A program made the translations under genes and the position numbers. This document shows positions 27,936-51,682 of a stretch of 64,000 bases of DNA, piece by piece. The DNA lies in assembly GCA_019685555.1 (NCBI GenBank), contig JABFQN010000001.1:62001-126000 (forward strand), in the 5' to 3' direction. The DNA is from Candidatus Bathyarchaeota archaeon A05DMB-3 (lineage in GTDB: Archaea > Thermoproteota > Bathyarchaeia > Bathyarchaeales > Bathycorpusculaceae). Position 1 is the first letter of the stretch, and every line of letters begins with the position of its first letter. The notes under the pieces were generated by a model. The model ran no database searches. It saw only the letters and a program-made list of their open reading frames with translations, and was not told where the DNA came from.

Positions 27936-27938
27936 AAG

Positions 27939-30239: not shown

Positions 30240-30307
30240 AAGGTTAAAGATACGGGAAGGTTTTTAAATTTCCCATTCAAAAAGAAAATCAAAAGGTGGA
30301 GAAATTC

Positions 30308-33910: not shown

Positions 33911-33964
33911 CTAAAATTCTAAATATTAAATAGTCACGAATACACTCTGCAATGGTGGCAGTTG

Positions 33965-35399: not shown

Positions 35400-38396
35400 T
35401 TATTTTTTGGGTTTTTTGAGGATGTAGACGGCTATGACGATTATGATGATGACGATTATGATGATGGCGGCTGCTAGTTCAGTTGAAAATGCGAGTGGCG
35501 GTGGGGGATGTTCTTCTGAAGGTGCTAACACCTCTAATGGGGTGTCTGCGGTGTAAGCGTAACTATATGCGTGGGTAATTTTGTCTTCGCCTTCGTACCA
35601 AGCTGTCCATGTCCAGTTTCCAGCGACTGTTGGTGTGTAGGAAACTGTGAATAAGCCTCTGCTGTCAGTTTTTGTTGTAACATCTTCTTGGGATCCATCA
35701 GGCTTTACAAAGGTCACTTTTACTGTGGCGTTGGGAATTCCAGGATACCAGACTTCAACAATCGATTGTTCTGGCAGGAGTTTGGGGTTAAACTTGGCGG
35801 TATCGTAAACTGTTACTGCACGTAGCTTTCCTTGTATTACAATGGTTTCGCCAACGTTGCTTTGTTTCCAGTCACACCATGCGACGATGTCGGTTTCGGC
35901 AACAGGTTTATCGCTGAAGCAGTATAGGCGTCCATCGTAGGATCCTATGTAGACTTTGCCTTCGTAGATGGCAGCTGTGCCGTAAATTGGTGCGCCACTG
36001 GAATAGGAAGAGATAGGCTTTCCACTTGTGGCGTCGAAGCATATCAGGGAGTTGGCGTTGTTGCCAACGTATACTTTGCCACCTGTTATGTCGTCGGCAT
36101 AGACTGCTGAAGAGTAGATTACATGGCCTACCCACTGGGACCATTGGCGTTCTGCATAAGTGCTGTTTATTATAGCCCAAGCGCTTACATACATGTTTTC
36201 GGATATGTAAAGTATACCATAGGTGCCATTATATCTGTATGCTGGTCTCCAAGCCATAATCGCAGAAGCCATCCCGACTAATGTTAGGTCGACGTAAAAT
36301 AGGTTTGCTCCATCGGTAATGTTTATGAAGTACATGCGTCGCCCGCCCATGAAGCCTCCTGTATCTGAACCTATAACAAGCATTTCACCGCCGCGGGGAT
36401 CATTGATCACTATTGGAGAGCCCACCAACCTTCTGTCGGTTGCAGTCAACTGTCGCCTCCATACGAGAGCCCCGTTAGCAGCGTTTAAGGCGTATAGGCT
36501 TCCGTTACCTGTTCCTATGTAGACTACTCCCTTGTAAACGAAGGGTGAGCTGGCTATGCCATATGTCCGGTTTGTAGCCGTATAGGACCAAACAATATCT
36601 CCGTTTGCAGTGTTTAGGCAATACACTTTACCATCCATGGCGCCTACGTAAAGCCTGCCTCCAGTAACAAACGGCGAAGAACGCCATTGAGGTAAAGTCC
36701 GGAGAAGCGGCCCTTCAGTTACTCCTCCAGCGAATTTCTTCCATACTTGTTGACCAGTGTTAGCGTCTATGCAGTAAATGTTCCCGTCGTCAGCACCTGT
36801 ATAGACCTTGCCGTCAACCACCGCGGGAGTTGACCCTATCCTATATCCCGTTGGGAATTTCCATATTAGGCTGCCACTATAGGCGTCGATGCAATATATG
36901 CTTCCATCATAAGAACCGAAGAACACTTTACCGTCTGCAACCACTGGGGATCCAACTATGGGCCCACTTGCTTGATAGAACCAAGCTGGTGTGCTAATGT
37001 CGCTTGGAGCGTGCGTACCGACTGCCACACCATAATTGCTTGGAGGGCCACCGAACATATTCCATGGATCGGATCTTTCACCAATACAATATAAGGTGCC
37101 ACCGGATATTCCATAGAAGTTTCCATAAGCAACCATTGGGTAGGCGAAGTTTATTGGGACTTTCCATATTACTTGCCCTGTAAAAGCGTCGAAGCATGTT
37201 GTGCTGTACCCTGGCGACGGAATTCCTGCCACGCTGGCTGTAGACGCTTGGTCGCATGTTTGAACATAAACCTTGCCGTCGGCAACCACTGGAACCGCAT
37301 AAGTTATAGAATAGTGGGCAGGCTGCTTCCAAATCATTTCGCCAGTTTCTGCATCATATGCTGCAACAAACGCCCTGCCTGGAGCCATAGACTTATCAAA
37401 GATCATTCCATAGGCTGCGGCGCCGCCAAAGGCATGATATGCTCTAGGGCCTAGATCGACATCCCACAACATTTCTCCAGTTTTGGCGTCATAGCAGGTT
37501 ACCCTTGTGGAGCCAGCAGTGTGGTAGACTTTGTCGTTGTAGTATATGATGCTGTAACCGCAATCGCCAACTTTCCAGTTCCTCCAAGCGAGTTTGCCTG
37601 TGGTGACATTTATAGCGAACAATTCGCCTTCTGCGTAGCCTCCATAGAAGGCTAGCCCACCGCCGGCTCCGAGAGCCTCAACACCTGTGGGTAACGGGCA
37701 TGTCCAAGCGATCGTGATTCCTGCAGTTGGATTAGAGAGATCCCAAGCAACAGCCGTGTGCGTGTTTGTGGTTAAGTTACGGGCTGCGGTTAATGCTAGC
37801 TTGTACTCCTGGTAGAAGAAGGCACCCCAATAAAGAACTTCTCCTGCAATCAGAGTGCTTATGCCGTCAGCAGTTGTCACCATCCTTGTGGTAACCCAAG
37901 AGCCATCACTTATCTTATAGACAGATATACGATCTGAGGAAATGTGTCCCATATATGTGCCGTCAATCTTGAATATTGCGCCGGGACCGAAGCCGATGGG
38001 CGTTCCATTGAGAGGTACATCGTATATAATAGCGCCGGTGAAGGGGTTCAGCGCATAAAGGCGACCGCCACCATAAGTGAAAATTTTTCCGTCAAAGGCA
38101 GTTGGAGGCCCACCAGAAACAGCACCTCCTCCTGGACGCCTAAAAGTCCACAGCACATCAGGCCTATTGGGCGCTGGACCAGGATTAAATCTTGTGTTTC
38201 CACTATCATGCCCTATTAGCGGCCAGTCGTACTGCATTATGTCGCCGTAGGGTTGTCCTGTTATTGGGTTAATATGTTGGCTTATAAGGGATGTAGAAGC
38301 GTTTACAACAGTGCTGGTGTTTGAAAATGTTGACCCTAAAAGCAAAATCGCCATGATGATAGATAACATTGTTGAAAGTTTTTTCTCTTGCTCCAT
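35400..38396 (-). CDS. Surface PQQ-like beta-propeller protein 1, membrane anchored
   Basis: A 998-residue protein: signal peptide (1-34, ending near VVNAS), an N-terminal segment PITGQPYGDIMQYDWPLIGHDSGNTRFNPGPAPNRP shared with propeller 3, then about a dozen PQQ-like blades repeating DGKVYxG...YCxDAxTG...W. An Ig-like beta domain (about residues 850-960) and a C-terminal membrane span (about 970-990) ending KKPKK follow. Many blades have Cys where common PQQ repeats have Ala. It is probably displayed outside the cell. PQQ itself need not bind; the repeat also makes structural BamB-like propellers. It is downstream of propeller 2 and the NapH-like gene on the same strand. Confidence 0.85.
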   Translation of the reverse strand: MEQEKKLSTMLSIIMAILLLGSTFSNTSTVVNASTSLISQHINPITGQPYGDIMQYDWPLIGHDSGNTRFNPGPAPNRPDVLWTFRRPGGGAVSGGPPTAFDGKIFTYGGGRLYALNPFTGAIIYDVPLNGTPIGFGPGAIFKIDGTYMGHISSDRISVYKISDGSWVTTRMVTTADGISTLIAGEVLYWGAFFYQEYKLALTAARNLTTNTHTAVAWDLSNPTAGITIAWTCPLPTGVEALGAGGGLAFYGGYAEGELFAINVTTGKLAWRNWKVGDCGYSIIYYNDKVYHTAGSTRVTCYDAKTGEMLWDVDLGPRAYHAFGGAAAYGMIFDKSMAPGRAFVAAYDAETGEMIWKQPAHYSITYAVPVVADGKVYVQTCDQASTASVAGIPSPGYSTTCFDAFTGQVIWKVPINFAYPMVAYGNFYGISGGTLYCIGERSDPWNMFGGPPSNYGVAVGTHAPSDISTPAWFYQASGPIVGSPVVADGKVFFGSYDGSIYCIDAYSGSLIWKFPTGYRIGSTPAVVDGKVYTGADDGNIYCIDANTGQQVWKKFAGGVTEGPLLRTLPQWRSSPFVTGGRLYVGAMDGKVYCLNTANGDIVWSYTATNRTYGIASSPFVYKGVVYIGTGNGSLYALNAANGALVWRRQLTATDRRLVGSPIVINDPRGGEMLVIGSDTGGFMGGRRMYFINITDGANLFYVDLTLVGMASAIMAWRPAYRYNGTYGILYISENMYVSAWAIINSTYAERQWSQWVGHVIYSSAVYADDITGGKVYVGNNANSLICFDATSGKPISSYSSGAPIYGTAAIYEGKVYIGSYDGRLYCFSDKPVAETDIVAWCDWKQSNVGETIVIQGKLRAVTVYDTAKFNPKLLPEQSIVEVWYPGIPNATVKVTFVKPDGSQEDVTTKTDSRGLFTVSYTPTVAGNWTWTAWYEGEDKITHAYSYAYTADTPLEVLAPSEEHPPPPLAFSTELAAAIIIIVIIIIVIAVYILKKPKK

Positions 38397-38430
38397 TTTA
38401 CATCACTCTTCAGACTCTTTTACAATACTT

Positions 38431-38444
38431 CTTTATAAAATTTG
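38431..38444 (-). promoter_or_regulatory. Promoter of propeller 1, shared with propeller 3
   Basis: On the minus strand CAAATTTTATAAAG lies 48 bases before the ATG at 38396. The gene for propeller 3 has CAAATTTTATAAGG 50 bases before its ATG. Both leaders also end in the same GTGATGTAAAATG, with GTGAT as ribosome site. So the two genes share regulation. Confidence 0.65.
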
Positions 38445-38488
38445 TCCACTTGAAAACGAAAAATAGGAAAAAGAGGGATGTTGCTGGG

Positions 38489-41392
38489 TTATTTTTTGGT
38501 TTTCTTTTTCAGCGTGTAAGCGGCTACGACTATTATGACGGCGATTATTACAATGGCGGCGATAATGTATTCTGTCGGTATGGCTGGCGGGGCTGTTGGT
38601 CCTGTGATGGCAGTTTTTACTGTTAGCGGATATGTGTCCGTGTAGGCGTATGTGTAGACTATGTAATCTTTGTCTTTGCCCTCGTACCACACAGTCCATG
38701 TCCAGTCGCCTGCTTGATCCACTTGAAAGCTGAAATCAGCCCAGCCCTTCTCATCCGTAGTTTCATTAATGTGCACTTGTGCACCACCAGGCTTCGTTAA
38801 AGTTAAGATAAGCTTCTCGTTTGGCAAGCCAGGCAAAAGCCTGCTATGCACAATAATTGTGTCGTTGAGGTAGGCTTCCTGCCAATCACACCAAGCAACA
38901 ATAGTTGGCGTGTATGTGGGTTTGTCGCTGAAGCAGTAGACGTTGTGGTCAGCACTTCCGACAATGACCATACCGTCGTAGATGGCTGGAGAGGATACAA
39001 CTTGTCCTTTGGTGGTGTACAAGGACAAGACTTTTCCTGTTGTGGGGTCGAGGGCTGTTACGCTGTAGCTGTCGCAGCCAACGTAAATTTTAGGTCCTAA
39101 CGGGTCGTCTGCGTAGGCCACAGATGAGAATACTTGAAAGCCGAGCCACTGGTACCATATGCGTTCGCCGTCGGTGGCGTTGTAGGCAGCTACACCCATA
39201 CCGTCGCCAACATACAGTACGCCGTTGACATATGTTGGAGTCCAGACAGACTGGGTGTTTGTGCCCATCAATCCGCCTTGTCCAATCATGTCTTTTCTCC
39301 ATATTAGGGTACCATCAGTGGCGTTAAGGGCTACTAAAATTATGTTTGAGCCAAAAATTCCAACGGAGTAAGCTGCGCCGCCTCCGATGAATACTTTGCC
39401 GTCAGCCACTGTAGGCGTTCCTCCGAAGAATAGGGACGGCACCATCCATGGCTGTTTTGGTGTTGTCCAGTTCCATATGTGTTTTAGTGTATTTGCGTCT
39501 AGGCAGTAGAGTTTTTTGTCCGTTGAGGCTATGTATATTCTGCCGTTAGCGTATGCTGGTGAGCCTACTATGGGACCGTTTGTCTGATATGTTTGTAAGA
39601 TATTGCCATTAGCAGTATCCATGCAGTAGACGTTTCCATCTAAAGCGCCAACATAAAGCCTGTTGCCAACAACTATGGGCGAAGAACGAGGCTGCCAGCT
39701 GCAAACTTCAATGAGTATTGGTGGAGGGTCTCCGGAATATATTTTTTGAGTTTGCCATATCAGATTTCCATTGCTTGCGTTCAAGCAATAAACACGTCCG
39801 TCATCAAAGCCAGTATAAACTTTTCCGCCTACAACAGCAGGCGAAGAGGTTACCCGATAGTTAGTTTTAAACTTCCAGACTAGGCTGCCAGTGTAGGCAT
39901 CTATGCAATATATGTGCTGATCGTGAGATCCTATGTAAACTTTTCCATTCACCACTGCAGGGGATGACATTACGGTTCCCTCTGTTTGGAAAGCCCATTT
40001 GAGGTTAAGCGTTGACGGTCCCATCTGGTTTACGGCCACCCCAGGCTGGTTTATGTTTCCGCGGAAGTATATCCAGTCACTAGGCTTTTTCTGATCGCTT
40101 ATGCAATAGAGTGCATTAGACCCCATGTAAGCTGTGGAAGCCATCACGTAGAGGTTTCCATAAGCTATTGCCGGTAAAGGCGCATACAGGTTAACCTCCC
40201 ATAGTTTCGCTCCAGTGAACGCATCAAGGCATGTAAATGATACTGGTGGAGCCTCTTCTTCTCCCGCAACTAGAGAGCCGTCACTTGTAGTTATATAGAC
40301 TTTACCGTCGGCAACAACAGGGTTAACGTAGCCAATAAAGTAGTGAGCTGGGGCTTTCCATAACAATTTGCCAGTTTCAATGTCCCAGCATCCTACGAAG
40401 CCACCCCAAGGATCAATGTTATGCTGGTAATATCTGCCATAAGCTGCTGCACCGCAGAAGGCGAAGAAGGCTCTTGGTCCAGCATCATAATCCCAAAGTA
40501 CTGTGCCGTCAGTTGCGTTGTAGCATGTGAGCCTAGTGGTGCCGGAACCATGAATTAAACGGCCATCCACATACGTGGCACTGTAAGCAACTATTTCCCC
40601 AATTTTCGGGGCTTTCCACACCAGTTCTCCAGTTTTTCCGTCAAAGGCATAGACGTAGCCATGATATGACCCGAAGAATACTTTTCCTCCGCCACAAGCG
40701 AGCACCTCGCCGTGCTCGTGGACTACCTTTTGCCAAGCAAGGGTTGGCGGAGAGGAGGGATTAGACAGATTGTAGGCGACTATGTATGGCGTTTGCGTGG
40801 GCAAGTCAAACATTGAAGTAAAATACAGTTTCAATTCCTGGGAATACCGTCCCTCCAAGTATTGCTTAACCTCAGCGCCAGGATGTCCCATAATGCCAAT
40901 CTCTTTGTACCATACTTCTACTCCGTCGGATATCCTATAGCACGCTAAGCCTCCCACGCCACCTACCATTTGAAGTGTAACGATCATGATATGCTGGTCG
41001 TCAAGTATTACTTGTGTACTCCCTCCAGTTCCATGTGTGATGTTCGCTTCCCATAATTTTGCGCCTGTAGTCGCATTAAAGCAGGCCAACTTTGATGGCT
41101 GAGGAGTAAACCATGGTGGACCAATTTGGGTAAAGATCCTGCCTTTATGAGTTACCACCGAAGAAGCAAAGTGTACACCGGAACCTAGGATGTCAGTTTT
41201 CCATAAAACGTTTGGTTTGCTAGGTGCTGGACCATCCGAGAACTCTGTCCATGATGAGTCATGTCCGAGCATAGGCCACTCGTACTGGCTTACCTCTGCT
41301 TTGCTTATTAACGGGACTGATGTTGCTAAAAGTGAAAGGCAAAGCAACAACAGAATAGAAGCACGCTTAAAGGTTGGCAGTCTTATTTCCAT
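38489..41392 (-). CDS. Surface PQQ-like beta-propeller protein 2, membrane anchored
   Basis: From the ATG at 41392 (MEIRLPTFKRAS; GAGGT site and TATA upstream) the product has 967 residues. A signal peptide ends near SKAEV; YEWPMLGHDSSWTEFSDGPAPSKPN follows, then repeated PQQ-like blades with a cysteine in most of them (ACFNATTG, TCYNATDG, TCLDAFTG, YCIDAYTG, YCLNASNG, YCMDTANG, YCLDANT). The final beta domain and anchor are nearly the same as those of propeller 3, with 253 identical bases. It lies 120-165 bp downstream of the NapH-like polyferredoxin gene on the same strand. An extracellular redox or binding role is inferred. Confidence 0.85.
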   Translation of the reverse strand: MEIRLPTFKRASILLLLCLSLLATSVPLISKAEVSQYEWPMLGHDSSWTEFSDGPAPSKPNVLWKTDILGSGVHFASSVVTHKGRIFTQIGPPWFTPQPSKLACFNATTGAKLWEANITHGTGGSTQVILDDQHIMIVTLQMVGGVGGLACYRISDGVEVWYKEIGIMGHPGAEVKQYLEGRYSQELKLYFTSMFDLPTQTPYIVAYNLSNPSSPPTLAWQKVVHEHGEVLACGGGKVFFGSYHGYVYAFDGKTGELVWKAPKIGEIVAYSATYVDGRLIHGSGTTRLTCYNATDGTVLWDYDAGPRAFFAFCGAAAYGRYYQHNIDPWGGFVGCWDIETGKLLWKAPAHYFIGYVNPVVADGKVYITTSDGSLVAGEEEAPPVSFTCLDAFTGAKLWEVNLYAPLPAIAYGNLYVMASTAYMGSNALYCISDQKKPSDWIYFRGNINQPGVAVNQMGPSTLNLKWAFQTEGTVMSSPAVVNGKVYIGSHDQHIYCIDAYTGSLVWKFKTNYRVTSSPAVVGGKVYTGFDDGRVYCLNASNGNLIWQTQKIYSGDPPPILIEVCSWQPRSSPIVVGNRLYVGALDGNVYCMDTANGNILQTYQTNGPIVGSPAYANGRIYIASTDKKLYCLDANTLKHIWNWTTPKQPWMVPSLFFGGTPTVADGKVFIGGGAAYSVGIFGSNIILVALNATDGTLIWRKDMIGQGGLMGTNTQSVWTPTYVNGVLYVGDGMGVAAYNATDGERIWYQWLGFQVFSSVAYADDPLGPKIYVGCDSYSVTALDPTTGKVLSLYTTKGQVVSSPAIYDGMVIVGSADHNVYCFSDKPTYTPTIVAWCDWQEAYLNDTIIVHSRLLPGLPNEKLILTLTKPGGAQVHINETTDEKGWADFSFQVDQAGDWTWTVWYEGKDKDYIVYTYAYTDTYPLTVKTAITGPTAPPAIPTEYIIAAIVIIAVIIVVAAYTLKKKTKK
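38567..38819 (-). repeat. 253 bp perfect inverted repeat, copy 1 (propeller 2 C-terminus)
   Basis: Identical over all 253 bases to 51352-51604 read on the other strand. It encodes most of the Ig-like domain just before the anchor. Sequence on both sides diverges at once, including within the same codons, so this is a conversion tract and not a recent whole-gene copy. Confidence 0.96.
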
Positions 41393-41440
41393 AATTCCAA
41401 CCTCAATAAAATTGTCACTCATCATAGTGTCGAACAATCT

Positions 41441-41450
41441 GTTTATAAGA
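41441..41450 (-). promoter_or_regulatory. Putative TATA box for propeller 2
   Basis: On the minus strand TCTTATAAAC lies about 50 bp before the ATG at 41392. It supports that ATG as the start, because transcription would begin close to 41420, inside the longer frame that opens at 41437. Confidence 0.5.
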
Positions 41451-41557
41451 CTTTCGGAATAACCTCAAAAATGCTGAAGCAGATAAGAATGCAGAAGATG
41501 AAACATAAAGAATGGGATTAGTTATTTTTCGTTATGGGCTGGTACGTTAGACTTATT

Positions 41558-42637
41558 TTACCTTAACAGCTTGACCTTAATAGCGTCATAGTCGCATACA
41601 ATGTAACACTCCATGCATTTAGTGCATTTATTTAACCCAACACCATCAACAATTTTTACACCCATAGGGCATACTTTTTCACATTTTCTATCATCCTCTA
41701 AGCGACACACCCCACAATAATCAAAGCGGTAATCCTCACATTTTGACGGACACCCTTTCATGACGCACTTATCTTCTTTTACTTTAGGTTTAATAAACGG
41801 ATTTAACGAGCCAACAATATTTAATAAAGCTCCAACAGGGCATAATCTCTTACACCAAAATCTCCTCTCTCTTATGCTCAGAAACACAGCCAAAACAGGT
41901 ATCGCATACAGTTCGACTAAAATATTATTAATTACGCCGGTAAGATACCTTGTGGCTTTAAGGTGAAACAAACCTCTAGTAAATATTCCTATAGGGCAAA
42001 CTGTGCAAAACACATTAAATCTTAAAACAGCTGAACTCGCAACAGCCAAAGCCAAAACACCGCCTGCCGTTGCTCCGCTTTTGTTCGAGACAACCTTTAA
42101 AATTGGGCACGCGTTACATAAAGCGCTCTTTTTATCCGTGCTTATGCTTTGCATATTCCTCTCAGATTTCTTAACTCTTTCAGCTTCAAGCTTAGGAAAG
42201 AAAAGCTCAATGCCTTTGTCAAAACTATCTATAATTGTGCCAACAGGACAAATCCAACTGCAGAAAACATTTCCCAAAAGAAAAATTACAAGTAAAGCTA
42301 GAAGAACAGCGATAATTGTTGGGACAATAAGACGCAATTCCACCTTTCCAGTAACTAGAGACTGTATCCCACCAAGCGGGCAAGCAAGCCACTCACCAAG
42401 CCCCACATTACACCAACCATTCAACCATACGCTGCAAGGCGACTGCGCAAGAGGCAAGAAAAGGAACGGTTGGCGATTTTGTAGAAAAATACTGTTCACT
42501 GGAGCATAGGGAACCGGCCACTCCCTTCCCGGAGGCACATAAGCAATGGGTAAAATGAATAAAATTAGAAAGGCAGCTTTACACGCCCACCTAAGATATC
42601 TCAGCTTTGCCTTTCGACTTTCTCCGCTTTTTTTCAA
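41558..42637 (-). CDS. NapH/MauN-like membrane polyferredoxin
   Basis: A 359-residue protein with about five hydrophobic spans and many cysteines. Membrane-proximal motifs GNVFCSWICPVG, FNVFCTVCPIG and RRFWCKRLCPVGALL are the C-x3-C-P pattern of NapH/NosR/CcoG-type proteins. The C-terminal region holds ferredoxin-type clusters (KCVMKGCPSKC, YCGVC...KCEKVCP, KCTKCMECYIVCD). These proteins move electrons between a quinol or soluble carrier and an outer-face partner. Here the next genes on the strand are propellers 2 and 1, so a surface partner is suggested. No nap or nos reductase genes are in the window. Confidence 0.85.
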   Translation of the reverse strand: MKKSGESRKAKLRYLRWACKAAFLILFILPIAYVPPGREWPVPYAPVNSIFLQNRQPFLFLPLAQSPCSVWLNGWCNVGLGEWLACPLGGIQSLVTGKVELRLIVPTIIAVLLALLVIFLLGNVFCSWICPVGTIIDSFDKGIELFFPKLEAERVKKSERNMQSISTDKKSALCNACPILKVVSNKSGATAGGVLALAVASSAVLRFNVFCTVCPIGIFTRGLFHLKATRYLTGVINNILVELYAIPVLAVFLSIRERRFWCKRLCPVGALLNIVGSLNPFIKPKVKEDKCVMKGCPSKCEDYRFDYCGVCRLEDDRKCEKVCPMGVKIVDGVGLNKCTKCMECYIVCDYDAIKVKLLR

Positions 42638-42797
42638 AGCCCTTCACGCTTTACTAACATTGACCCATAATCCAATCCTAATGAGGTGTTATGTACGTCT
42701 ACGTGAAACTTAAACGTATTGTTAAGGCATTTCCCTTTTATCCAAAATTATTTTAATCGATGCTCCTTTTACTGTATAAAATCCGGAAGGACCTATT

Positions 42798-44147
42798 ATG
42801 AAAACAGTTAAAAGTTTCACAAAATATGTTGCCGTCTTCCTAAGCGGTGTTTTAATAGCCTCTTTACTATGGAATTTAAACCAGTTCCTCCTTTTCAAGG
42901 ACATAAGTTACACTGAAGATTATGATTATGTGATTTATCTGGATGCAAATGCTGTTAAGGTTAAGAATGGGACAACTGGGCGTATAGATTTCATAGGAGA
43001 AAACTTGACGCAAGCCATAGACTATGCGTTAAAAAGTGATGGGCTAAAAGTTTTCATAAAAAGTGCAGAGTATAACGCTTCCAGCGGTATCAATTTAAAA
43101 AATCTCAAAAATGTGAGGATAACCAGCAACGGGGCTAAAATAAATCTGGGAGGCAACGCCTTTATAATCAAAGGGGAATGCTGGGAAAACTCGAAACATG
43201 TTTCCATAGAAGGACTAACATTATTTAACGGAAGTTTAATCATTGAAAACAGTTTCATGACAACTGTGAAAAACTGCATTTTCGCAGATTCCGACAACGG
43301 TATAATCCTTTCAAACACTAATGGTTGGACTGAATGCACGAAAATTGAAGACTGCTACTTTGAAAATGTGAAAAGAGGAATTGTTTTCAGAACTCCGGAT
43401 GGAAATGGAACACGCTCCTATGCAAATACTGAGATAAAGCGTTGCTACTTTGAGTTAATGAAGGAAAACTCTATAGGAGTACATGTTGAACCAATGTCAG
43501 ACTTCAATGAAGGACTAATTCAAAACGTGAGAATATGGATGGGAGGAGTAAGCGAAACCAACCAAACAGGACTATTCGTTGAAGGAAGCATGCTTAATAC
43601 TCTTATGCAGGACATAGTTTTCGAGTCCTTTGCCAACAATCCTAAAAACATATATGGTATACATTTTGGCCCGGGAGGAGAAGGTCCAATTTTAGGCCAT
43701 GGAATAGTTTTCTGCGGAAATTTAACAGAAAAAATTCACAATCCATTCAAGAGGTGGCTTTACGGCGTTGGGGGTTCCTTCAAAGTCGAAAACGTTAGCA
43801 TATCTCTTGGAGTAGATAATGGTTATGGGGCTTATCAAGAAATAGGCCTAGTTACCCACCTATCTCTATCCATATATTCTTTCAATGTTAAAGTACAGAT
43901 TAATGGCCAATTCTCAACACAAGAAACCATTGTTGTCCGATTTAGACTGAAACTTTTAGACGATTCCTTATCTGAAGATCTGGAAATGACCTTCAGAAAC
44001 GCCACCACAATATGGTTGGACCACAATGATTGGCTAAAAATTTGGCCCAATAGAAATATTATACAATCCTTAATTGTGGATGCAAAAACAAATGAAAACA
44101 CGTCAAAAGTGACAGTTGCTGTGTCTGTTTACGGGCAATATGGATAA
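42798..44147 (+). CDS. Membrane-anchored right-handed beta-helix protein
   Basis: An N-terminal uncleaved anchor or signal (residues 9-30) precedes a pectate-lyase-like parallel beta-helix: repeated short strands such as NVRITSNGAKINLGGNAFIIKG, VSIEGLTLFNGSLIIEN and TVKNCIFADSDNGIILSN. The C-terminal 100 residues form a separate beta region. The product is extracytoplasmic; carbohydrate binding or cleavage is possible but no catalytic residues are assigned. GGAAGGA lies seven bases before the ATG. It is divergent from the NapH-like gene and converges on the RnfD-like gene, so it interrupts the redox genes on the opposite strand. Confidence 0.72.
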   Translation: MKTVKSFTKYVAVFLSGVLIASLLWNLNQFLLFKDISYTEDYDYVIYLDANAVKVKNGTTGRIDFIGENLTQAIDYALKSDGLKVFIKSAEYNASSGINLKNLKNVRITSNGAKINLGGNAFIIKGECWENSKHVSIEGLTLFNGSLIIENSFMTTVKNCIFADSDNGIILSNTNGWTECTKIEDCYFENVKRGIVFRTPDGNGTRSYANTEIKRCYFELMKENSIGVHVEPMSDFNEGLIQNVRIWMGGVSETNQTGLFVEGSMLNTLMQDIVFESFANNPKNIYGIHFGPGGEGPILGHGIVFCGNLTEKIHNPFKRWLYGVGGSFKVENVSISLGVDNGYGAYQEIGLVTHLSLSIYSFNVKVQINGQFSTQETIVVRFRLKLLDDSLSEDLEMTFRNATTIWLDHNDWLKIWPNRNIIQSLIVDAKTNENTSKVTVAVSVYGQYG

Positions 44148-44192
44148 TTTCAAAATTAAACAATTGGTATGAATAAAAGAAGAGAAGGGTTT

Positions 44193-45545
44193 TCAGCTTT
44201 TCGCTGAGCGTAAAGAGGCTTTTGCCCTAAGGGTAAATCCTCTTAAGTCTATCCTTGCGGGGCAAACGAAACTGCAGTGTCCACATCCATCACAGAGGTC
44301 TGCTCGAAGTTTCCTTAACATATCTGCATTTCCTTTGTCAAATGCCTCCTTTATTAAAATGGGACTTAATCTATGACAACAGACAACCATGCAAGCTCCG
44401 CACCGCATGCAAGAAGTTGTTTTTACAGCTTCAAACTGTTGGGCTTTTGGAAGTTTCACTTCTATCTTCTCTTCAGTCGGCTTTGTCAATCCAACTTTAT
44501 CCAACGCTGACGAAGTTAAGTTCATTATGATTAACGCTAAAATTGAACCTCCGAAAAAGTTCATGTAAGTTTGTATTAAAACTGTTAAGACTCCTAGGCC
44601 TAAACCGAAAATGCATTGTCCAAGGTGAGTTAATGGTGTTGTTGCGGGATCGGTAGCCATGAAAAATGCTAGAAAGATGGAACTCCCTACGAACAATTCA
44701 AAGCCAAGTCTTAGAAGCGCGTCTCCGCCATACACAGCACTCATAATCAAAGATATTATCGTGACTGACGCGAAGTATGCTGCCGTTATCCGCCATTTTA
44801 TATACTTGCGGGCAACTATGAAAAGCGCTATTCCAACAATGATAACGGCGATGCTTGACGCTCCTCCTGCCCAACCATGATATTTAGCCACAACTAAAGT
44901 CCAGAAAAGCTCAGAAGGCGAAGGTGGAAGGGTAAGGACGCCCTGCGACAATAAATCTGGGTTTCCAAAGCAAAATTGCAGAGCGCTTGCAAAAGATGCA
45001 AGGGGGTCTAAACCAGTGTAGTTTAGCTCGGTCGCTAACGTTGGTATATACCCTGTGTGATCTTTTGGCAGTAATATTTGGTATAAGAATGGCAGCAAAA
45101 CCAAGATTTTTGCCGCTGCAGCTGGGTTTACATATTTTCTGCCGAGCAAGCCTTGGAGTTTCTTAAATGCTACTTCTCCTACGGCGGCAATGATTGCGAC
45201 GTAAATGAAGGCTTGAGGCGCCACAAGTGGTAGTAACTCAACAGTCGCCATAACCGGAATACCATAGGAGTAAGAGAGGGCAACGATTAAACCGAAAACA
45301 GCCGTTGACATAGTGTTAACCGGTCCCTTGTCCTTCATTGCGAGGGAAAGCATATAGTCAAGGGCTACTGCCACAACAACTGAAATCAAACATGAAATCA
45401 ATAACGTTAAGCCTAAAGACCAGCCTTGTTGGGTTATAGGCCACCACAGGGCTGTTGTAACCGCCGCAAGGACGGCAAGCGCAATAAAAGTGTAAGTCAT
45501 CATTTTGTCTTTAGTCATCCAAGAATATTCCTTCGCTTTAGACAT
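44193..45545 (-). CDS. RnfD/NqrB-family membrane protein fused to RnfC-type ferredoxin domain
   Basis: Residues 15-360 are a RnfD/NqrB-like membrane domain of about ten spans, with VNPAAAAK and FMATDPATTPLTHLGQ. Residues 375-450 match the dicluster ferredoxin end of RnfC: C379-x2-C382-x2-C385-x3-C389 and C418-x2-C421-x2-C424-x3-C428-P, followed by AR(I)DLRGF. The SLBB and NADH/FMN parts of RnfC are absent. At the RnfD covalent-flavin motif (S-G-A-T-P-L-A) the protein reads TGLDPLA (177-183), with Asp in place of the attachment Thr. No RnfA, B, E or G genes are nearby. A TATA element (AACCTTATAAATC, 45597-45609) lies upstream. It is probably a transmembrane electron path or ion-coupled reductase. 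Confidence 0.85.
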   Translation of the reverse strand: MSKAKEYSWMTKDKMMTYTFIALAVLAAVTTALWWPITQQGWSLGLTLLISCLISVVVAVALDYMLSLAMKDKGPVNTMSTAVFGLIVALSYSYGIPVMATVELLPLVAPQAFIYVAIIAAVGEVAFKKLQGLLGRKYVNPAAAAKILVLLPFLYQILLPKDHTGYIPTLATELNYTGLDPLASFASALQFCFGNPDLLSQGVLTLPPSPSELFWTLVVAKYHGWAGGASSIAVIIVGIALFIVARKYIKWRITAAYFASVTIISLIMSAVYGGDALLRLGFELFVGSSIFLAFFMATDPATTPLTHLGQCIFGLGLGVLTVLIQTYMNFFGGSILALIIMNLTSSALDKVGLTKPTEEKIEVKLPKAQQFEAVKTTSCMRCGACMVVCCHRLSPILIKEAFDKGNADMLRKLRADLCDGCGHCSFVCPARIDLRGFTLRAKASLRSAKS

Positions 45546-45596
45546 TCTTGCAACACCAGCTGTTTGGAACTATGTCTCCTTAAGTGTGGGAAATTG

Positions 45597-45609
45597 ATTT
45601 ATAAGGTTT
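45597..45609 (-). promoter_or_regulatory. Putative TATA box for the RnfD-like fusion gene
   Basis: On the minus strand AACCTTATAAATC is about 55 bp before the ATG at 45545, leaving room for a leader of about 30 nt. Confidence 0.5.
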
Positions 45610-45677
45610 TCCGGCTTAGGAAGCGTTAATAACAATGCAACAAATTATTGTTAATATTGATGTTGAGGTTTGGTCTG

Positions 45678-46805
45678 ATGAAAATATCAACTGGGCTCTT
45701 GGCCGTCGCAGCTATGTTGGTTATTATAGTATCCCTTTTTACTGCAATTGAATGGTTTTGGAATGGCGAGTCTAGCCCAAAAATCTTTGTTGGTGTTGAG
45801 TTTGCCTATGGTAGCATAAACGATTGCAAGGAACTAGTTGACAAGGTTAAATATTACACAAATCTTTTTGTCGTCGGTTTGCCCGAACTAACATTTAATC
45901 AGGCTGAATTGAATGAGATATGTGATTATATATACAATGCTGGGCTTCACTTTATTATAATGTTCACTAATCCGCAAGCTTACATGTATTATCACCCTTA
46001 TGTATGGATTAAAAAGGCTGCAGAGAAATATGGTGAAAAATTTCTGGGCGTATATTATTATGATGAACCGGGTGGAAAGCAGCTTGACGGCGACAGAGGT
46101 AGAATGGTTGTTGAAGCTGAAAACTATACGGAAGCCGCCAACATCTATGTTGATTACTTAAGAGGTCATTTAGAATATTATCTGTATTCTGGAGTTAAAG
46201 TATTCACTTCAGATTATGGCCTTTACTGGTTTGATTTTAAAGCTGGATACGATGTTGTCTTCGCTCAGTTTGGATGGAATCATAGTAGATTGTTAAACAT
46301 CGCGCTTTGTAGGGGCGCGGCGAAGGTTCAGAGAAAGGAGTGGGGTGTGATAATAACGTGGACTTTTACACATCCGCCCTACCTTGAGTCTGGAGATGAG
46401 CTTTACAATGATTTGGTTTTAGCTTATAAAGCTGGAGCGAAATACTTTGTTGTTTTCAGCTATCCTAACATTACGCGTTATGGAACATTAACAGAAGACC
46501 ACTTTGAGGCTTTGGAAAATTTTTGGGATTATGTTCAGCGAAACCCTAAGGAGCATGGTGTTTATAATGGTGACGTGGGGTATGTTCTCCCGAAGGATTA
46601 TGGGTTCGGATTTCGAGGTCCTCATGATACCATTTGGGGGTTATGGGATGGTGATAGCTTAGCAGAAATAATATGGCAAGATTCATGGGACCTTGCGGAT
46701 GAGCACCAATTTAAGCTTGATGTTATTTATTATGACGACAAGTTTAGCAACGCAATTAAGAACAGTTACAAAAAATTATTTTTCTGTGATGAAACATCAA
46801 CTTAA
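45678..46805 (+). CDS. Membrane-anchored glycoside-hydrolase-like protein of unknown function
   Basis: From the ATG at 45678 there is an N-terminal hydrophobic span (MKISTGLLAVAAMLVIIVSLFTA), then a TIM-barrel-like sequence: VGVEFAYGSINDCKELVDKVKYYTNLFVVG, GLHFIIMFTNP, KFLGVYYYDEPGGKQLD and VIITWTFTHPPYLESGDEL. The acidic pair in YYYDEPGGK at the end of a strand is where many glycoside hydrolases hold a catalytic acid. GAGGT lies eight bases before this ATG; an ATG at 45648 is less likely. It is displayed outside the cell and divergent from the RnfD-like gene. It is not similar in motifs to the paralogues at 17.9-22.3 kb. Confidence 0.68.
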   Translation: MKISTGLLAVAAMLVIIVSLFTAIEWFWNGESSPKIFVGVEFAYGSINDCKELVDKVKYYTNLFVVGLPELTFNQAELNEICDYIYNAGLHFIIMFTNPQAYMYYHPYVWIKKAAEKYGEKFLGVYYYDEPGGKQLDGDRGRMVVEAENYTEAANIYVDYLRGHLEYYLYSGVKVFTSDYGLYWFDFKAGYDVVFAQFGWNHSRLLNIALCRGAAKVQRKEWGVIITWTFTHPPYLESGDELYNDLVLAYKAGAKYFVVFSYPNITRYGTLTEDHFEALENFWDYVQRNPKEHGVYNGDVGYVLPKDYGFGFRGPHDTIWGLWDGDSLAEIIWQDSWDLADEHQFKLDVIYYDDKFSNAIKNSYKKLFFCDETST

Positions 46806-46874
46806 GATTCGCGTCTAGATAAGATTTATTAAATGTAAGCGATAGATTAAGCTTAAACTGGGAGAGGTTTGAAA

Positions 46875-47477
46875 TTGACTGAAGGGGAAAAGTTGAAGGT
46901 AACTGATATTTTGTATGGTGTTATAGTGCCATCTATCGTCGCAGCGTTAATCATCATCTTTCCAGCATACCTAAAACCAGCGTTGGATCCAACGTTGCAG
47001 GCGATACTTGTAGACGGACTTGCAGAGGCAATTCTTGTCATAGGGGTTCCGATGCTCTTTGGATTGCTTTGGAATCGCTGGGCTGGAGGGGCTTCCGGAT
47101 TTATACTTGGAGGCATTTACGCGTTGTATGTGAATGGCATGTTTATCTATTACAGCATGTTCTATCCTCAATATGTTCCTAACGACATTTCCACTTTAGG
47201 ATACTTAGTATGCGCGATGTTGACAGGGTATATGGCTGGAGCCTTGAACAAGGGGTCTTTCGGTTTCCGAAGAATGCTGGTTGCTGGGCTTGTTTCAGGG
47301 ATTATTGGTGGTTTCTTCCTTCTTTGGACTCAGATAATATCACCTCTGGGTATGGTGACTGATATTTACTATGCGCTGTTCATTACATTGTTGCCGAGGA
47401 TAATTTATGGTGTTGTGATACCAATTATTGCTAAGGTCTTCATTTGGTACGGCATGTTACCTAGGCGCATATCGTAA
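46875..47477 (+). CDS. Six-span membrane protein of unknown function
   Basis: About 200 residues with six hydrophobic spans and little soluble sequence: ILYGVIVPSIVAALIIIFP, GFILGGIYALYVNGM, YLVCAMLTGYMAGALNKG, MLVAGLVSGIIGGFF and LLPRIIYGVVIPIIAKVF. No family is recognised; the glycine-rich spans could pack as a small transporter-like or scaffold unit. The TTG at 46875 is favoured with GGAGAGG seven bases upstream; a TTG at 46869 is nearer to the site. It lies between the hydrolase-like gene and another membrane protein, all on the plus strand. Confidence 0.62.
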   Translation: MTEGEKLKVTDILYGVIVPSIVAALIIIFPAYLKPALDPTLQAILVDGLAEAILVIGVPMLFGLLWNRWAGGASGFILGGIYALYVNGMFIYYSMFYPQYVPNDISTLGYLVCAMLTGYMAGALNKGSFGFRRMLVAGLVSGIIGGFFLLWTQIISPLGMVTDIYYALFITLLPRIIYGVVIPIIAKVFIWYGMLPRRIS

Positions 47478-47489
47478 TCATCTTCGCCC

Positions 47490-47495
47490 TTTTTT
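47490..47495 (+). terminator. Possible U-rich terminator
   Basis: A run of six T residues 13 bases after the stop at 47477. No hairpin is required for archaeal termination at such sites. Confidence 0.3.
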
Positions 47496-47617
47496 CTTGT
47501 ACTAATCTTCCTTGCGCCATTATTTAAGGAAGTATTTGCTGTCGATGAAAAACTCTTAAAGTTTAAACCCGTAGATGACATTTCTTAAATTATAACCGTT
47601 TGCGTAGAGGGTTTAAT

Positions 47618-48649
47618 GTGTCATCAAGTGATGAAGGAAAGGATGCGCATTCAAGTGTTCTTGTAAAGGTTGCTCCATGGATTTTTGTTGTGGTTTTAGC
47701 ATATTTCACAGCGGCTGTCTACTGGATTTTTCAGTCATTTATGTGGGGGTATGAGATAACTTCGAGATTTCCGATTTACGCAAGCCTCCTTAAAGAGTCT
47801 TGGTGGATAATCCTCTTTTACAGCAGCGAATTGGGCGGCGTGGTTTGCACTTCACTGCGTTTCGTAGCAGGAGTTTTTGCTTTATACTCAGCTATTTTAT
47901 TCTTTAGAGAGGGAAAATCCTTCACTCCGCGGGTTAAGAAAAATGTTTGCAGAGTGCTTGCTTTCGAAGCTGGGTACTATTTGGCTTTGATTCCCTCTGT
48001 GATTTTGGGTTTTGTTCATCCATTGTTTGCTGAAAAATTGTGGTATTTTGACTCAACCCCTGGAATGCCCGTCTTGCTTGTTAGCGGAGTTGCTTGTCTC
48101 TTCATGGTTTTAGCAATTCCACAAGCCTTGCTTAGGCTACGGCTAAGAATAGTCAAAGATTTGCCGTGCGAAGAAATCGTAAAGTGGGTTTGCATTACGG
48201 GCGTGGCTTATCTCTTTGTTGTTTTCTGGCTTAATTATGCGCTGTCATGGATTGCAACTACTGTCCCTTGGGTGGAAAGGGCGCAGCCGGGCGTGAGCAT
48301 ACTATTTGAACCCTTAAGCTTAATTAGTTTTGCAGCTACAATTTTCGGCTTGCTAGCTATAGCCTTATCTGCATTGTTTTCAGCTTTGCCATATATAAGA
48401 GGGCAAGGCGCCAGCCAAAGCTTTAAACGTGTAGGCGCCATCATGATAGCTTTTGGAAGCTACTTTATACTGGTGACCATTCTTTATATAGTTGCAGGTG
48501 GTTATGCTGGACGACCCACGGTGTGGCATGAAATGGTTGTACCCCACAACCCTGACTTGTGGTGCGTGACCTTCTTTCTGCTAGGCTTACGGCTAATATC
48601 GATGAAGTCAAATGAGAGAGTGACAAATTTTATAAGGATACGTCGTTAA
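47618..48649 (+). CDS. Eight-span membrane protein of unknown function
   Basis: About 343 residues with seven or eight spans: an N-terminal span after VLVKVAPW, SLRFVAGVFALYSAILFF, AFEAGYYLALIPSVILGFV, VLLVSGVACLFMVLAIPQALL, CITGVAYLFVVFWLNYAL, the pair ISFAATIFGLLAIALSAL, and VGAIMIAFGSYFILVTILYIVAGG. No family is recognised. The GTG at 47618 is preferred because GAGGG lies six bases before it; a TTG at 47600 is possible. The promoter of propeller 3 overlaps its 3' end. Its place between the hydrolase-like gene and propeller 3 suggests a surface-related role, without proof. Confidence 0.62.
   Translation: MSSSDEGKDAHSSVLVKVAPWIFVVVLAYFTAAVYWIFQSFMWGYEITSRFPIYASLLKESWWIILFYSSELGGVVCTSLRFVAGVFALYSAILFFREGKSFTPRVKKNVCRVLAFEAGYYLALIPSVILGFVHPLFAEKLWYFDSTPGMPVLLVSGVACLFMVLAIPQALLRLRLRIVKDLPCEEIVKWVCITGVAYLFVVFWLNYALSWIATTVPWVERAQPGVSILFEPLSLISFAATIFGLLAIALSALFSALPYIRGQGASQSFKRVGAIMIAFGSYFILVTILYIVAGGYAGRPTVWHEMVVPHNPDLWCVTFFLLGLRLISMKSNERVTNFIRIRR
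48624..48636 (+). promoter_or_regulatory. Promoter of propeller 3, shared with propeller 1
   Basis: CAAATTTTATAAGG starts 50 bases before the ATG at 48674, within the end of the upstream coding region. It and the leader end GTGATGTAAAATG (48664-48676) match the promoter and leader of propeller 1. Confidence 0.65.
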
Positions 48650-48673
48650 GATAGACGAGAGACGTGATGTAAA

Positions 48674-51600
48674 ATGTCTTGGGAAGGAAAACTTTCAAAA
48701 GTTTTAATTGTTGCAATGGTTATGCTGCTATTAGGCTCAGTATTTTCAATGATTCCAAATACTGCAAACGCTTCGACTTTACCCATAAGCCAACGCATCA
48801 ACCCGGTAACTGGACAACCTTACGGCGATATAATGCAATATGACTGGCCAGTTGGCGGGCATGACGAGGGATTGACTGGTTTCAATCCTGGCCCAGCGCC
48901 TAGCAGGCCTAACCTTTTGTGGAGAGTTAGCACAACAGGAACTGGACATGTAAGTGTTTTTAATGGAAAAGTTTTCGTGATGGAGGCAGCTATGATTGGC
49001 ATAACTCCTAGTCAAATGAGGTTGTTTGCGTATGACGCCTTTACGGGCGAACTTATATATGCAGTTCCTGCTCCGGGCACTCCTGCTCCGTCGGGTACAG
49101 CGGGACTTTATAAGCTTGATGATACCTACCTCCTTTTGCAGGGCACAACAGGCGCCGTATGCCGCAGAATTGACAATGGTGAAGTGGTGTGGACTCTGAC
49201 AATACCTGGTGGCATGGGGCTCCCTGGCAGTGGGACATACTTTGCTGGGCACTATTCTGAAAGCATGAAAAAGCTGTTTACACATTCATGGAATGCATCT
49301 ACCCACCAAGGTCAGATTTTAGCTTATGACTTGTCAAATCCTTCAAATCCCCCACCATTAGCTTGGAGGTATCTAGCTGATAGCCCAAGTGAAATACTCT
49401 GTTCAGGTGATGGAAAGCTCTTTTTGGGAACAACTGAAGGCACAGTCTACGCATTGAATGGCACCACTGGAGAACGTGTATGGCAAACCCATGGAAAGGG
49501 CGGGTTGATACAGCAATCAGCCATTTATTATAACGGCAAACTGTATACCTCTGCGACAACAACGCAAATGACTTGTTTTGACGGAAAAACAGGCGAAATC
49601 CTATGGCAATACGAAAAAGGTCCAAGAGCGTTCTCCGCCTATAGAGGGGCAGCAGGACATGGAATGATATTTGACACCACTGTAGAAACTGATCCCCACG
49701 GCTGGGTTTATGCGTGGGACGCTGAAACAGGTGAAGTTCGATGGAAGCAGCCCGGCTACTATTATATCTCTTATACCACCATGGCTGTAGCTGACGGCAA
49801 AGTTTATACAACGACATGCGATTGGATGGCTGGCGCCGTGGTCGCAGGGTTAACAATGCCTGGATACGAGTTTAGCTGCTTTGACGCGTTCACTGGAACA
49901 TTGCTGTGGAAGCTTCCAGGCATAAATTTTGCCCAACCCACAATTGCATATGGAAACCTTTACGGCATTTACGGCGGCTATTTATACTGTATCAGCGACA
50001 AGCCAAAAGACTGGACCCACGGATTTATTGGAAACGTCGAAACCGGGAGAGTTGCTGTAGGTCAATACGGTCCATCAAAACTTAATCTTAAATGGGCTTT
50101 TCAAACTGGAGGAGACGTTAGCAGTTCACCAGCAGTCGTAGACGGCAAAGTATATGTTGGGTCTCACGACAAGAACTGGTATTGTCTAGACGCTTATACG
50201 GGAGCCAAAATCTGGAACTTCACGATCGGACATTACGTGCGATCCTCAGCAGCAGTGGTTGGCGGAAGAGTCTTTACAGGCGCTGATGATGGCTACTTCT
50301 ACTGTTTAAACGCTAGCACCGGCCAGCAAATATGGAAAACCCCTGCTGGCGGGCATTTTCCAAACATGATGGTGCCAACAGAATTTCAGCCACGCTCTTC
50401 TCCAATAGTAATCGGAAACAGAGTGTACGTGGGCTCCTTGGACGGCAAAGTTTACTGTCTTAACGCCGAAAATGGAAACGTATTATATACATATTCAACA
50501 GGGGGGCCGATATTTGGTTCGCCAGTTTACTACAATGGCATTATTTACATAACCTCCACGGATACCTACCTCTATGCTTTAAATGCCGCAGACTTAAGCT
50601 TAAAATGGCGGAGCTTCCCGCTTAACTTGCAGATTGGCATACCAGAACGCAGTAACCTCTTCAATATTGGCACGCCAACAGTAGCCGATGGCAAGGTCTT
50701 CATTGGAGGCGGCGTTATGTATGGCACTGCTGTACCTGGAGTAAACTATTATCCCCACAGCGTTCCCTCAGGAGCCTGGGGAGGCACCATTAGATTTTTC
50801 GCCTTTAATGCGTCGACAGGCGCAAGCATATGGAATCAGACGCTCGCTGGAAACACTCAACCAGTATGGGTCCCAGTATACAAAGATGGCAAGCTCTACA
50901 TATCAGAATTTATGCAGGTCACTTGCATGAACGCTACCAACCCAAACTCTGGGCCATACAAGGTATCTGACTTCGGAGAAATGTTTGGAGCCCGTCGAGC
51001 TGGAAACCGAACATGGGGGCAATGGTTAGGCTATCAGATTTCCTCTTCAGTTGCATATGCAGACGATATAACTGGTCCCAAAGTATATGTTGGCTGCGAC
51101 ATCGGCAGCGTCACGGTGTTAGACGCCACCAATGGAAAACCGTTATCTTCATACCCAACTCCTGGAAATGTACCCTCTTCTCCCGCGATTTGGGACGGGA
51201 AAGTATACGTCGGATCAGTCAATGGAAAAGTTTACTGTTTCAGTGATGCGCCTTCTTACTCTCCTGAAATTGTTGCTTGGTGTGATTGGAGTGAGGCCTA
51301 CGCGGGCGAAAACATTGTTGTTCATAGCCGTCTACTGCCGGGCATTCCAGGCGAGAAGCTTATCTTAACTTTAACGAAGCCTGGTGGTGCACAAGTGCAC
51401 ATTAATGAAACTACGGATGAGAAGGGCTGGGCTGATTTCAGCTTTCAAGTGGATCAAGCAGGCGACTGGACATGGACTGTGTGGTACGAGGGCAAAGACA
51501 AAGATTACATAGTCTACACATACGCCTACACGGACACATATCCGCTAACAGTAAAAACTGCCATCACAGGACCAACAGCCCCGCCAGCCATACCGACAGA

Positions 51601-51682
51601 ATACGTAATCGCCATAGCAGCCATAATCATAATCATCATAATTGCTATAACAGCATACACCCTAAAAAAACACAAAAAATAA
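48674..51682 (+). CDS. Surface PQQ-like beta-propeller protein 3, membrane anchored
   Basis: A 1002-residue protein. It has a signal peptide (1-34, ending near TANAS), the PVTGQPYGDIMQYDWPVGGHD segment as in propeller 1, about 14 PQQ-like blades, an Ig-like domain (about 865-965) and an isoleucine-rich anchor ending LKKHKK. Cysteines occur at the end of a strand in many blades (TCFDGKTG, SCFDAFTG, YCLDAYTG, YCLNASTG, YCLNAENG, TCMNATN, YCFSDA). The N-terminus and promoter are like propeller 1, whereas the C-terminal domain is identical in DNA to propeller 2, so it is a mosaic. It is the last gene before the cobalamin gene cbiB. Confidence 0.86.
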   Translation: MSWEGKLSKVLIVAMVMLLLGSVFSMIPNTANASTLPISQRINPVTGQPYGDIMQYDWPVGGHDEGLTGFNPGPAPSRPNLLWRVSTTGTGHVSVFNGKVFVMEAAMIGITPSQMRLFAYDAFTGELIYAVPAPGTPAPSGTAGLYKLDDTYLLLQGTTGAVCRRIDNGEVVWTLTIPGGMGLPGSGTYFAGHYSESMKKLFTHSWNASTHQGQILAYDLSNPSNPPPLAWRYLADSPSEILCSGDGKLFLGTTEGTVYALNGTTGERVWQTHGKGGLIQQSAIYYNGKLYTSATTTQMTCFDGKTGEILWQYEKGPRAFSAYRGAAGHGMIFDTTVETDPHGWVYAWDAETGEVRWKQPGYYYISYTTMAVADGKVYTTTCDWMAGAVVAGLTMPGYEFSCFDAFTGTLLWKLPGINFAQPTIAYGNLYGIYGGYLYCISDKPKDWTHGFIGNVETGRVAVGQYGPSKLNLKWAFQTGGDVSSSPAVVDGKVYVGSHDKNWYCLDAYTGAKIWNFTIGHYVRSSAAVVGGRVFTGADDGYFYCLNASTGQQIWKTPAGGHFPNMMVPTEFQPRSSPIVIGNRVYVGSLDGKVYCLNAENGNVLYTYSTGGPIFGSPVYYNGIIYITSTDTYLYALNAADLSLKWRSFPLNLQIGIPERSNLFNIGTPTVADGKVFIGGGVMYGTAVPGVNYYPHSVPSGAWGGTIRFFAFNASTGASIWNQTLAGNTQPVWVPVYKDGKLYISEFMQVTCMNATNPNSGPYKVSDFGEMFGARRAGNRTWGQWLGYQISSSVAYADDITGPKVYVGCDIGSVTVLDATNGKPLSSYPTPGNVPSSPAIWDGKVYVGSVNGKVYCFSDAPSYSPEIVAWCDWSEAYAGENIVVHSRLLPGIPGEKLILTLTKPGGAQVHINETTDEKGWADFSFQVDQAGDWTWTVWYEGKDKDYIVYTYAYTDTYPLTVKTAITGPTAPPAIPTEYVIAIAAIIIIIIIAITAYTLKKHKK
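51352..51604 (+). repeat. 253 bp perfect inverted repeat, copy 2 (propeller 3 C-terminus)
   Basis: Base-for-base identical to the reverse complement of 38567-38819 in propeller 2, 12.5 kb away and in opposite orientation. The two repeats bracket propeller 2, the NapH-like and RnfD-like genes and the genes up to propeller 3. Confidence 0.96.

Follow-up and report, generated by a model that had tools for sequence, protein, structure and literature searches.

An RnfD-ferredoxin fusion and its constant membrane partner: a candidate electron outlet in Bathyarchaeia

A 64,000-nucleotide stretch (the window) of contig JABFQN010000001.1 from Candidatus Bathyarchaeota archaeon A05DMB-3 encodes a 450-amino-acid (aa) protein in which an RnfD/NqrB-type membrane domain is fused to the ferredoxin end of RnfC. 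The constant partner of RnfD is a 202-aa membrane protein, not the NapH-like polyferredoxin encoded nearby. The sequences suggest that the fusion and the 202-aa protein could together form a minimal RnfD-derived conduit leading electrons from cytosolic carriers into or across the membrane, a reading to which we give a probability of about 0.5. The host genome (1.46 Mb, 28 contigs, 96% complete) belongs to the Bathyarchaeia, mostly uncultured archaea of mud and gut habitats that are among the most abundant archaea of anoxic sediments. An earlier note on the window had proposed a surface redox module made of the fusion, the NapH-like protein and three large propellers; the RnfD-ferredoxin core is more interesting than that module. 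Its features are as follows.

44193..45545, minus strand: RnfD-ferredoxin fusion, 450 aa, core of the system (Pfam PF03116 and Fer4; NCBIfam rnfD and rnfC tails)
44490..45545, minus strand: RnfD/NqrB-type membrane domain, residues 1-352, with NPA (140-142) and MATDP (296-300) kept
44196..44432, minus strand: RnfC-type 2[4Fe-4S] ferredoxin domain, residues 372-450, clusters at 379-389 and 418-428
46869..47477, plus strand: 202-aa six-helix membrane protein, constant partner, without Pfam family, weakly similar in fold to the S-components of energy-coupling factor (ECF) transporters

The fusion is a genuine, conserved protein

The fusion described in the earlier note is borne out by its domain matches. 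The NQR2_RnfD_RnfE domain (PF03116) spans residues 26-351 (Pfam, E 4.4e-39), and the tail, which carries two CxxCxxCxxxC motifs (residues 379-389 and 418-428), has the C-terminal end of RnfC as its best family match (E 8.5e-12), ahead of other ferredoxin families. Because many independently assembled genomes, some of them single contigs, encode the protein at about 47-84% identity, a frameshift artefact is excluded. It is conserved over two families, with invariant cluster cysteines, and its nearest named relatives (identity up to 84%) are metagenome-assembled genomes (MAGs) of Candidatus Bathyarchaeota. Its homologues are confined to one order of Bathyarchaeia, and the RnfD-RnfC-ferredoxin fusion is found only in Bathyarchaeia. 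Apparent fusions in Zetaproteobacteria, Scalindua and Clostridia were discarded: there tblastn had merged two genes that are really ordinary, adjacent rnfC-rnfD.

The earlier note had suggested looking for the fusion in other archaeal genomes. Among 300 genomes of the phylum, the window's own included, close relatives were found in 21: 14 carry the fusion (cut by a contig end in one of them, G196) and seven carry a separate RnfD (375-413 aa) followed directly by RnfC (429-431 aa). In one MAG, palsa_989 (L058, L080), a separate RnfD+RnfC pair exists alongside a fusion that lacks its customary neighbours.

RnfA and RnfE are missing from the carriers; the earlier note had reported no other Rnf subunits within its 16 kb. 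In searches with positive controls, RnfA/RnfE (PF02508) and the flavin transferase ApbE were found in none of the 21 carrier genomes, that is, neither in the window's genome nor in the 20 further carriers; RnfG/FMN_bind (PF04205) was absent from the window's genome, the one carrier searched for it. Since two carriers are single-contig assemblies, incomplete assembly is not the cause of the missing RnfA/E and ApbE. A complete rnf operon elsewhere in the genome, one of the two findings that the earlier note had named as fatal to its proposal, is ruled out by the absence of RnfA/E from 21/21 carriers.

The covalent flavin site is lost

The RnfD motifs of 35 bacterial and 47 bathyarchaeal sequences were compared. 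The region of the covalently bound flavin mononucleotide (FMN), D-A-x3-A-[TS]-P-L, is kept in the bacterial proteins (its D, A, P and L positions in 32-35 of the 35) and unconserved among the bathyarchaeal ones, while the NPA and FFMATDP motifs are retained in both. In the window's fusion the [ST]xAT flavinylation motif has disappeared, residues 176-183 reading YTGLDPLA. Near-matches to it exist in L034 (SGET) and in a loop of L032 (TGAT), both from genomes without ApbE. Where bacteria have a glutamate in the GE[TV]S motif, 46 of the 47 bathyarchaeal sequences have glycine.

A six-helix membrane protein always accompanies RnfD

An orthologue of the 202-aa protein is present in 21/21 carriers versus 0/34 non-carriers, two of the latter holding only a paralogue (about 1e-42 to 1e-45). 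Within the window's family the figures are 17/17 versus 0/6. The corresponding Fisher p values, 1e-15 overall and 1e-5 within the family, are uncorrected for kinship; the co-occurrence holds in two families. The gene lies 128-253 base pairs from the fusion in most relatives. In several Bathycorpusculum-type genomes it is unlinked, elsewhere in the genome, and the co-occurrence still holds.

The AlphaFold model of the 202-aa protein has six helices (pLDDT 79), and its first seven Foldseek matches are the ECF S-components ThiT and RibU (E 0.07-1.1, probability up to 1.00). These matches are weak, with TM-scores of about 0.38-0.47, below 0.5 by query length, and Pfam ECF_trnsprt is hit by two of 14 members of the protein family, at E 0.22 at best. 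Homologues of EcfT were found in all 25 genomes checked, equally in those without the 202-aa protein.

Paralogues of the 202-aa protein occur in L154, L155, L157, L158, G000:C20 and L153:7849-8409. Those of L154, L155 and L157 adjoin genes for ArsR-type regulators and partly SBF/ACR3-like and LMWPc/ArsC-like genes; near the paralogues of L154, L155, L157 and L158 there are genes for small 2[4Fe-4S] ferredoxins. The paralogues are a possible arsenic-related membrane protein family.

Exchangeable cytoplasmic inputs

In a maximum-likelihood tree of the RnfD domain, the bathyarchaeal proteins form one group (support 100/100), inside which the fusions are a single clade (98/99; the only member labelled as having a separate RnfC, L094, is cut by a contig end). 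The RnfD proteins with a separate RnfC fall outside this clade, in two groups. A Pfam scan of one such RnfC found it complete, with RnfC_N, Complex1_51K and ferredoxin domains. Since the fusions form one clade with the separate pairs outside it, the simplest history, as read from the sequences, would be an ancestral rnfD-rnfC pair and then a single in-frame fusion in which RnfC lost its NADH/FMN part. Outside the fusions, the fused ferredoxin is closest to the C-terminal ends of bathyarchaeal RnfC proteins, at 42-58 bits; bacterial RnfC reaches no more than 38 bits.

A third arrangement, RnfD-ferredoxin-FrhB/FdhB, is patchily distributed (L034, L044, L070, L071); the FrhB_FdhB domains were recognized by Pfam in L034, L070 and L071 and by alignment in L044. 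The FrhB domains of these triple fusions are 63-78% alike, versus 33-38% to a stand-alone FrhB of the window's genome, so the F420 module was either gained once and then lost several times, or passed around. Built on RnfD, the triple fusion is predicted to be a membrane-bound F420H2 oxidoreductase. In the window's genome two FrhB-family genes, one of them complete, lie elsewhere, and their products could dock on the fusion. The cytoplasmic input thus differs between members of the family: a separate complete RnfC, which would be the ancestral state, a fused ferredoxin, or a ferredoxin with an FrhB/F420 domain.

The NapH-like protein and the propellers are not constant parts

Every open reading frame (ORF) of the earlier note's gene list was found at the position given there. 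Besides the fusion and the 202-aa gene, the region contains the following.

35400..38396, minus strand: anchored PQQ_2-type propeller 1, semi-conserved, non-constant neighbour
38489..41437, minus strand: anchored propeller 2, semi-conserved neighbour
41558..42637, minus strand: NapH-like membrane polyferredoxin, 359 aa, examined and rejected as a part
42798..44147, plus strand: 449-aa signal-anchored protein, neighbour in the nearest relatives only (L052-L055, L093)
45648..46805, plus strand: 385-aa surface-anchored protein, recurrent, non-constant neighbour (seen in L038, L052, L072, L160, L161)
48674..51682, plus strand: anchored propeller 3, semi-conserved neighbour, inverted duplicate of propeller 2

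The NapH-like protein contains Fer4_5 (E 5.6e-16) and scores 42-45 bits with NCBIfam napH, far under the 213-234 cut-offs; no other nap genes are among the scanned neighbours, the genome itself not having been searched for them. Its inclusion in the module did not hold. Homologues are present in four of the 14 fusion genomes (two on another contig, one 16 kb away) and in two genomes without any RnfD, and only in the window and its closest relative, L052, does the gene stand beside the fusion. We therefore rejected it as a member of the system. Elsewhere the homologues stand beside an M24 peptidase (L167, L168), an FG-GAP protein (L170) and propellers (L166).

The three propellers are, as the earlier note had it, anchored proteins of about 1000 residues (998, 982 and 1002 aa) with PQQ_2/BamB-type repeats, a signal-like helix at the N-terminus and a membrane anchor at the C-terminus. 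Against TIGR03075 they score 94-119 bits (cut-off 480), hence no match at the level of a pyrroloquinoline quinone (PQQ) dehydrogenase, and they have neither a haem motif (CxxCH) nor a cofactor signature. Of the 15 fusions with enough flanking sequence, 10 have a propeller of more than 300 aa within 10 kb, as do two of the six RnfD+RnfC pairs. By chance about 3 of 12 genomes would be expected to have one, against 10 observed (p 6e-5, or 9e-4 without near-duplicates). The chance figure counts every matched stretch as a gene, which overstates the number of propellers; the excess over chance is inflated by shared descent of gene order. The claimed proximity is thus above chance, but propellers are not a constant part, none being near the fusion at five of the 15 loci. 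Propellers 2 and 3, inverted relative to each other, share 78% DNA identity across the 3' 669 base pairs and have nearly identical C-terminal domains; they flank the block running from the NapH-like to a 349-aa protein, and are a possible site of rearrangement or gene conversion.

The remaining statements of the earlier note fared variously. No window ORF of at least 80 aa contains CxxCH, in keeping with its remark on cytochromes, and the three membrane or surface proteins are there (385 aa with a signal anchor; 202 and 349 aa with several transmembrane helices). The gene of the supposed beta-helix protein (42798-44147) exists, but its place in the module does not stand, adjacency being limited to the nearest relatives; the label itself is unverified, as Pfam and NCBIfam searches of the protein gave no match.

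A predicted electron outlet and its alternatives

In Rnf, the two clusters of RnfC bridge the riboflavin of RnfD and the NAD site (PMC12174285). In the conduit that we propose, low-potential electrons from ferredoxin, or from a docked F420H2 or NADH module, would enter the two clusters and go on to a flavin held non-covalently by the RnfD domain; in Rnf the corresponding step runs in the opposite direction, from RnfD riboflavin to RnfC. From there they would exit, at the membrane or across it, by way of or together with the 202-aa protein, the only constant candidate for the electron exit. With no RnfG, RnfA or RnfE the Rnf circuit is incomplete, and the electrons must therefore exit by another route; lacking RnfA/E and the flavin shuttle RnfG, the system is unlikely to pump ions as Rnf does. 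Cells in which no cytochromes, quinones or redox sink are known might use the conduit to dispose of electrons, and its acceptor might be the anchored propellers, a soluble flavin or another shuttle. A more elaborate version appears rather unlikely to us: an undescribed archaeal class of respiratory-type outlets, namely a two-component RnfD conduit with exchangeable NADH, F420H2 or ferredoxin inputs, whose partner, of the vitamin-binding S-component fold, would hold a non-covalent flavin and pass electrons outside without cytochromes, quinones or covalent flavins.

Several points weigh against the conduit. Several charged positions that do not vary in bacterial RnfD have changed here (GE to GG, R to Q, E to G), so that electron transfer within RnfD could be altered. 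The 202-aa protein has no conserved cysteine and no cofactor motif among its invariant columns, which, together with its weak likeness to S-components, makes a transport role possible; moreover, the genes of its paralogues belong to arsenic-type clusters. For the fusion, AlphaFold gave a low-confidence model (pLDDT 56), which was not used.

The transport role can be put as an explanation of the whole, in which a flavin-less RnfD domain moves a solute or ion with the S-component-like protein, gated or powered by the Fe-S or NADH/F420 module. RnfD/NqrB is structurally related to ammonium and urea transporters (PMC12174285), the covalent FMN site and ApbE are gone, ThiT and RibU fill the top seven places for the partner's model and EcfT is encoded in all genomes checked. 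However, the fold and Pfam scores are low, EcfT is just as present where the 202-aa protein is not, and sister proteins keep a complete RnfC or an F420 module, which favours electron flow; we consider such a redox-gated transporter unlikely. Electrons might also run the other way, membrane energy or an outside donor feeding low-potential electrons to the neighbouring radical S-adenosylmethionine (SAM) and B12 enzymes, as Rnf does for nitrogenase. The most constant neighbours after the 202-aa gene do encode AhbD/NirJ-like, HutW/HemN-like and BchE-like B12 radical SAM proteins. Yet the subunits that couple Rnf to ion flow, RnfA/E and RnfG, are absent, fermentation reduces ferredoxin in these cells so that such a supply seems unneeded (PMC9534799), and the RnfD+RnfC pair is often apart from the HutW gene in Bathycorpusculum: quite unlikely, in our view.

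The chain of the earlier note, from ferredoxin through the RnfD-like and NapH-like proteins to the anchored propellers, draws on the gene order in the window and on the frequent closeness of propellers (p below 1e-3 with every matched stretch counted). An electron-transfer role has also been proposed for bathyarchaeal (Bathy-6) propellers (PMC11697101), leaning on a Methanosarcina study the scale of which is disputed (PMC10945356). We hold this chain to be very unlikely: NapH is absent from 10 of the 14 fusion genomes and present without RnfD in two, four of the six RnfD+RnfC loci also lack a nearby propeller, shared synteny inflates the statistic, and the propellers have no match at the level of a PQQ dehydrogenase and no haem motif. 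That the fusion is a functionless, decaying remnant of a lost Rnf complex would agree with the loss of most subunits, of the flavin site and of the RnfC N-terminal domain; it is extremely improbable in view of the sequence identity kept across two families, the invariant cluster cysteines and the perfect co-occurrence with the partner.

Relation to known systems

The closest known relatives of the proposed conduit are the bacterial two-subunit NQR/RNF-like systems, which it resembles without belonging to them. There, an RnfD-like protein without flavinylation site bears a C-terminal cytosolic donor domain, and outward electron transfer has been proposed (PMC10979944, PMC8238504, Meheust et al. 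2021). Shared with them are the unflavinylated RnfD/NqrB-like protein, the C-terminal cytosolic input, the lack of RnfA/E and a predicted one-way electron flow. The bathyarchaeal system differs in its input (ferredoxin, ferredoxin-FrhB or separate RnfC instead of a PF00175 NAD-binding domain), in having no ApbE in the 21 carriers, in its unrelated six-helix partner, with no FMN-binding RnfG-like partner found in the window's genome, and in being archaeal. With the Rnf complex (RnfABCDGE) it has in common the RnfD domain and the RnfC ferredoxin end, and the sisters keep a separate rnfD and a complete rnfC. Unlike Rnf, however, the window holds RnfC only as its C-terminal ferredoxin, RnfA/E and ApbE (21 carriers), FMN_bind (window's genome) and the covalent FMN site are lacking, and the gene order is D then C, whereas the bacterial loci examined have C then D.

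Like the F420H2-oxidizing subunits FrhB and FpoF, the triple fusions bear FrhB_FdhB N and C domains behind two [4Fe-4S] clusters, but these are joined to RnfD rather than to a hydrogenase or complex I, and the window's protein has no FrhB domain. The 202-aa partner shares six helices, a length of about 200 aa and its best fold matches with ThiT and RibU, but its scores are weak, it has no family match and its link to RnfD is obligate. The protein at 41558-42637 shares the Fer4_5 repeats of NapH/MauN membrane ferredoxins, but is below the NapH cut-offs and unlinked to the fusion in relatives.

The open-licence papers searched yielded no description of the fusion, of the swapping of inputs or of the partner. 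For Bathyarchaeia, stray RnfC/RnfD hits without the full set and an unexplained sink for reduced ferredoxin have been reported (PMC9534799), as have, for Bathy-6, the lack of RnfABCDEG and an orphan FrhB (PMC7886697); terminal electron transfer in these archaea is stated to be not known (PMC10477458, PMC11697101). The RnfD-ferredoxin family could be the missing exit for their spare electrons, and it is a specific, conserved candidate for this ferredoxin-recycling or electron-exit step, present moreover in the cultured Bathyarchaeum tardum, whose growth DMSO or nitrate stimulates (PMC10477458). The family also indicates that the RnfD half of Rnf can persist without the pump and accept different electron-input modules.

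The wider neighbourhood

Two radical SAM genes belong to the conserved surroundings of the fusion.

30296..31612, plus strand: HutW/HemN-like radical SAM protein, found repeatedly in synteny with the fusion in relatives
31652..32713, minus strand: AhbD/NirJ-like radical SAM/SPASM protein, near the fusion in nearly all relatives

Further constant neighbours are MtrH with a corrinoid protein and a TrmB-like membrane-bound regulator. In the window the block is split, the fusion and the 202-aa gene sitting between propellers 2 and 3, at a distance of 11-17 kb from the two radical SAM genes. The stretch 22451-35347 contains a dense radical SAM set (BchE-like B12, HutW-like, AhbD/NirJ-like and Rv2578c-like) together with MtrH and the corrinoid protein, perhaps an undescribed pathway of tetrapyrrole synthesis or methyl transfer. 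The TrmB-like protein, a winged-helix protein with C-terminal membrane helices, adjoins the fusion in L057 (9318-9785), L033, L034, L047 and L061, and stands beside it also in L067, L084, L088 and L094, though not in the window; it is a candidate regulator of the fusion locus. Two membrane proteins of 751 and 766 aa, encoded at 25680-30239 and syntenic across the family, were set aside as redox proteins: they gave no Pfam or NCBIfam match, are multi-helix and have a glycosyltransferase-like look.

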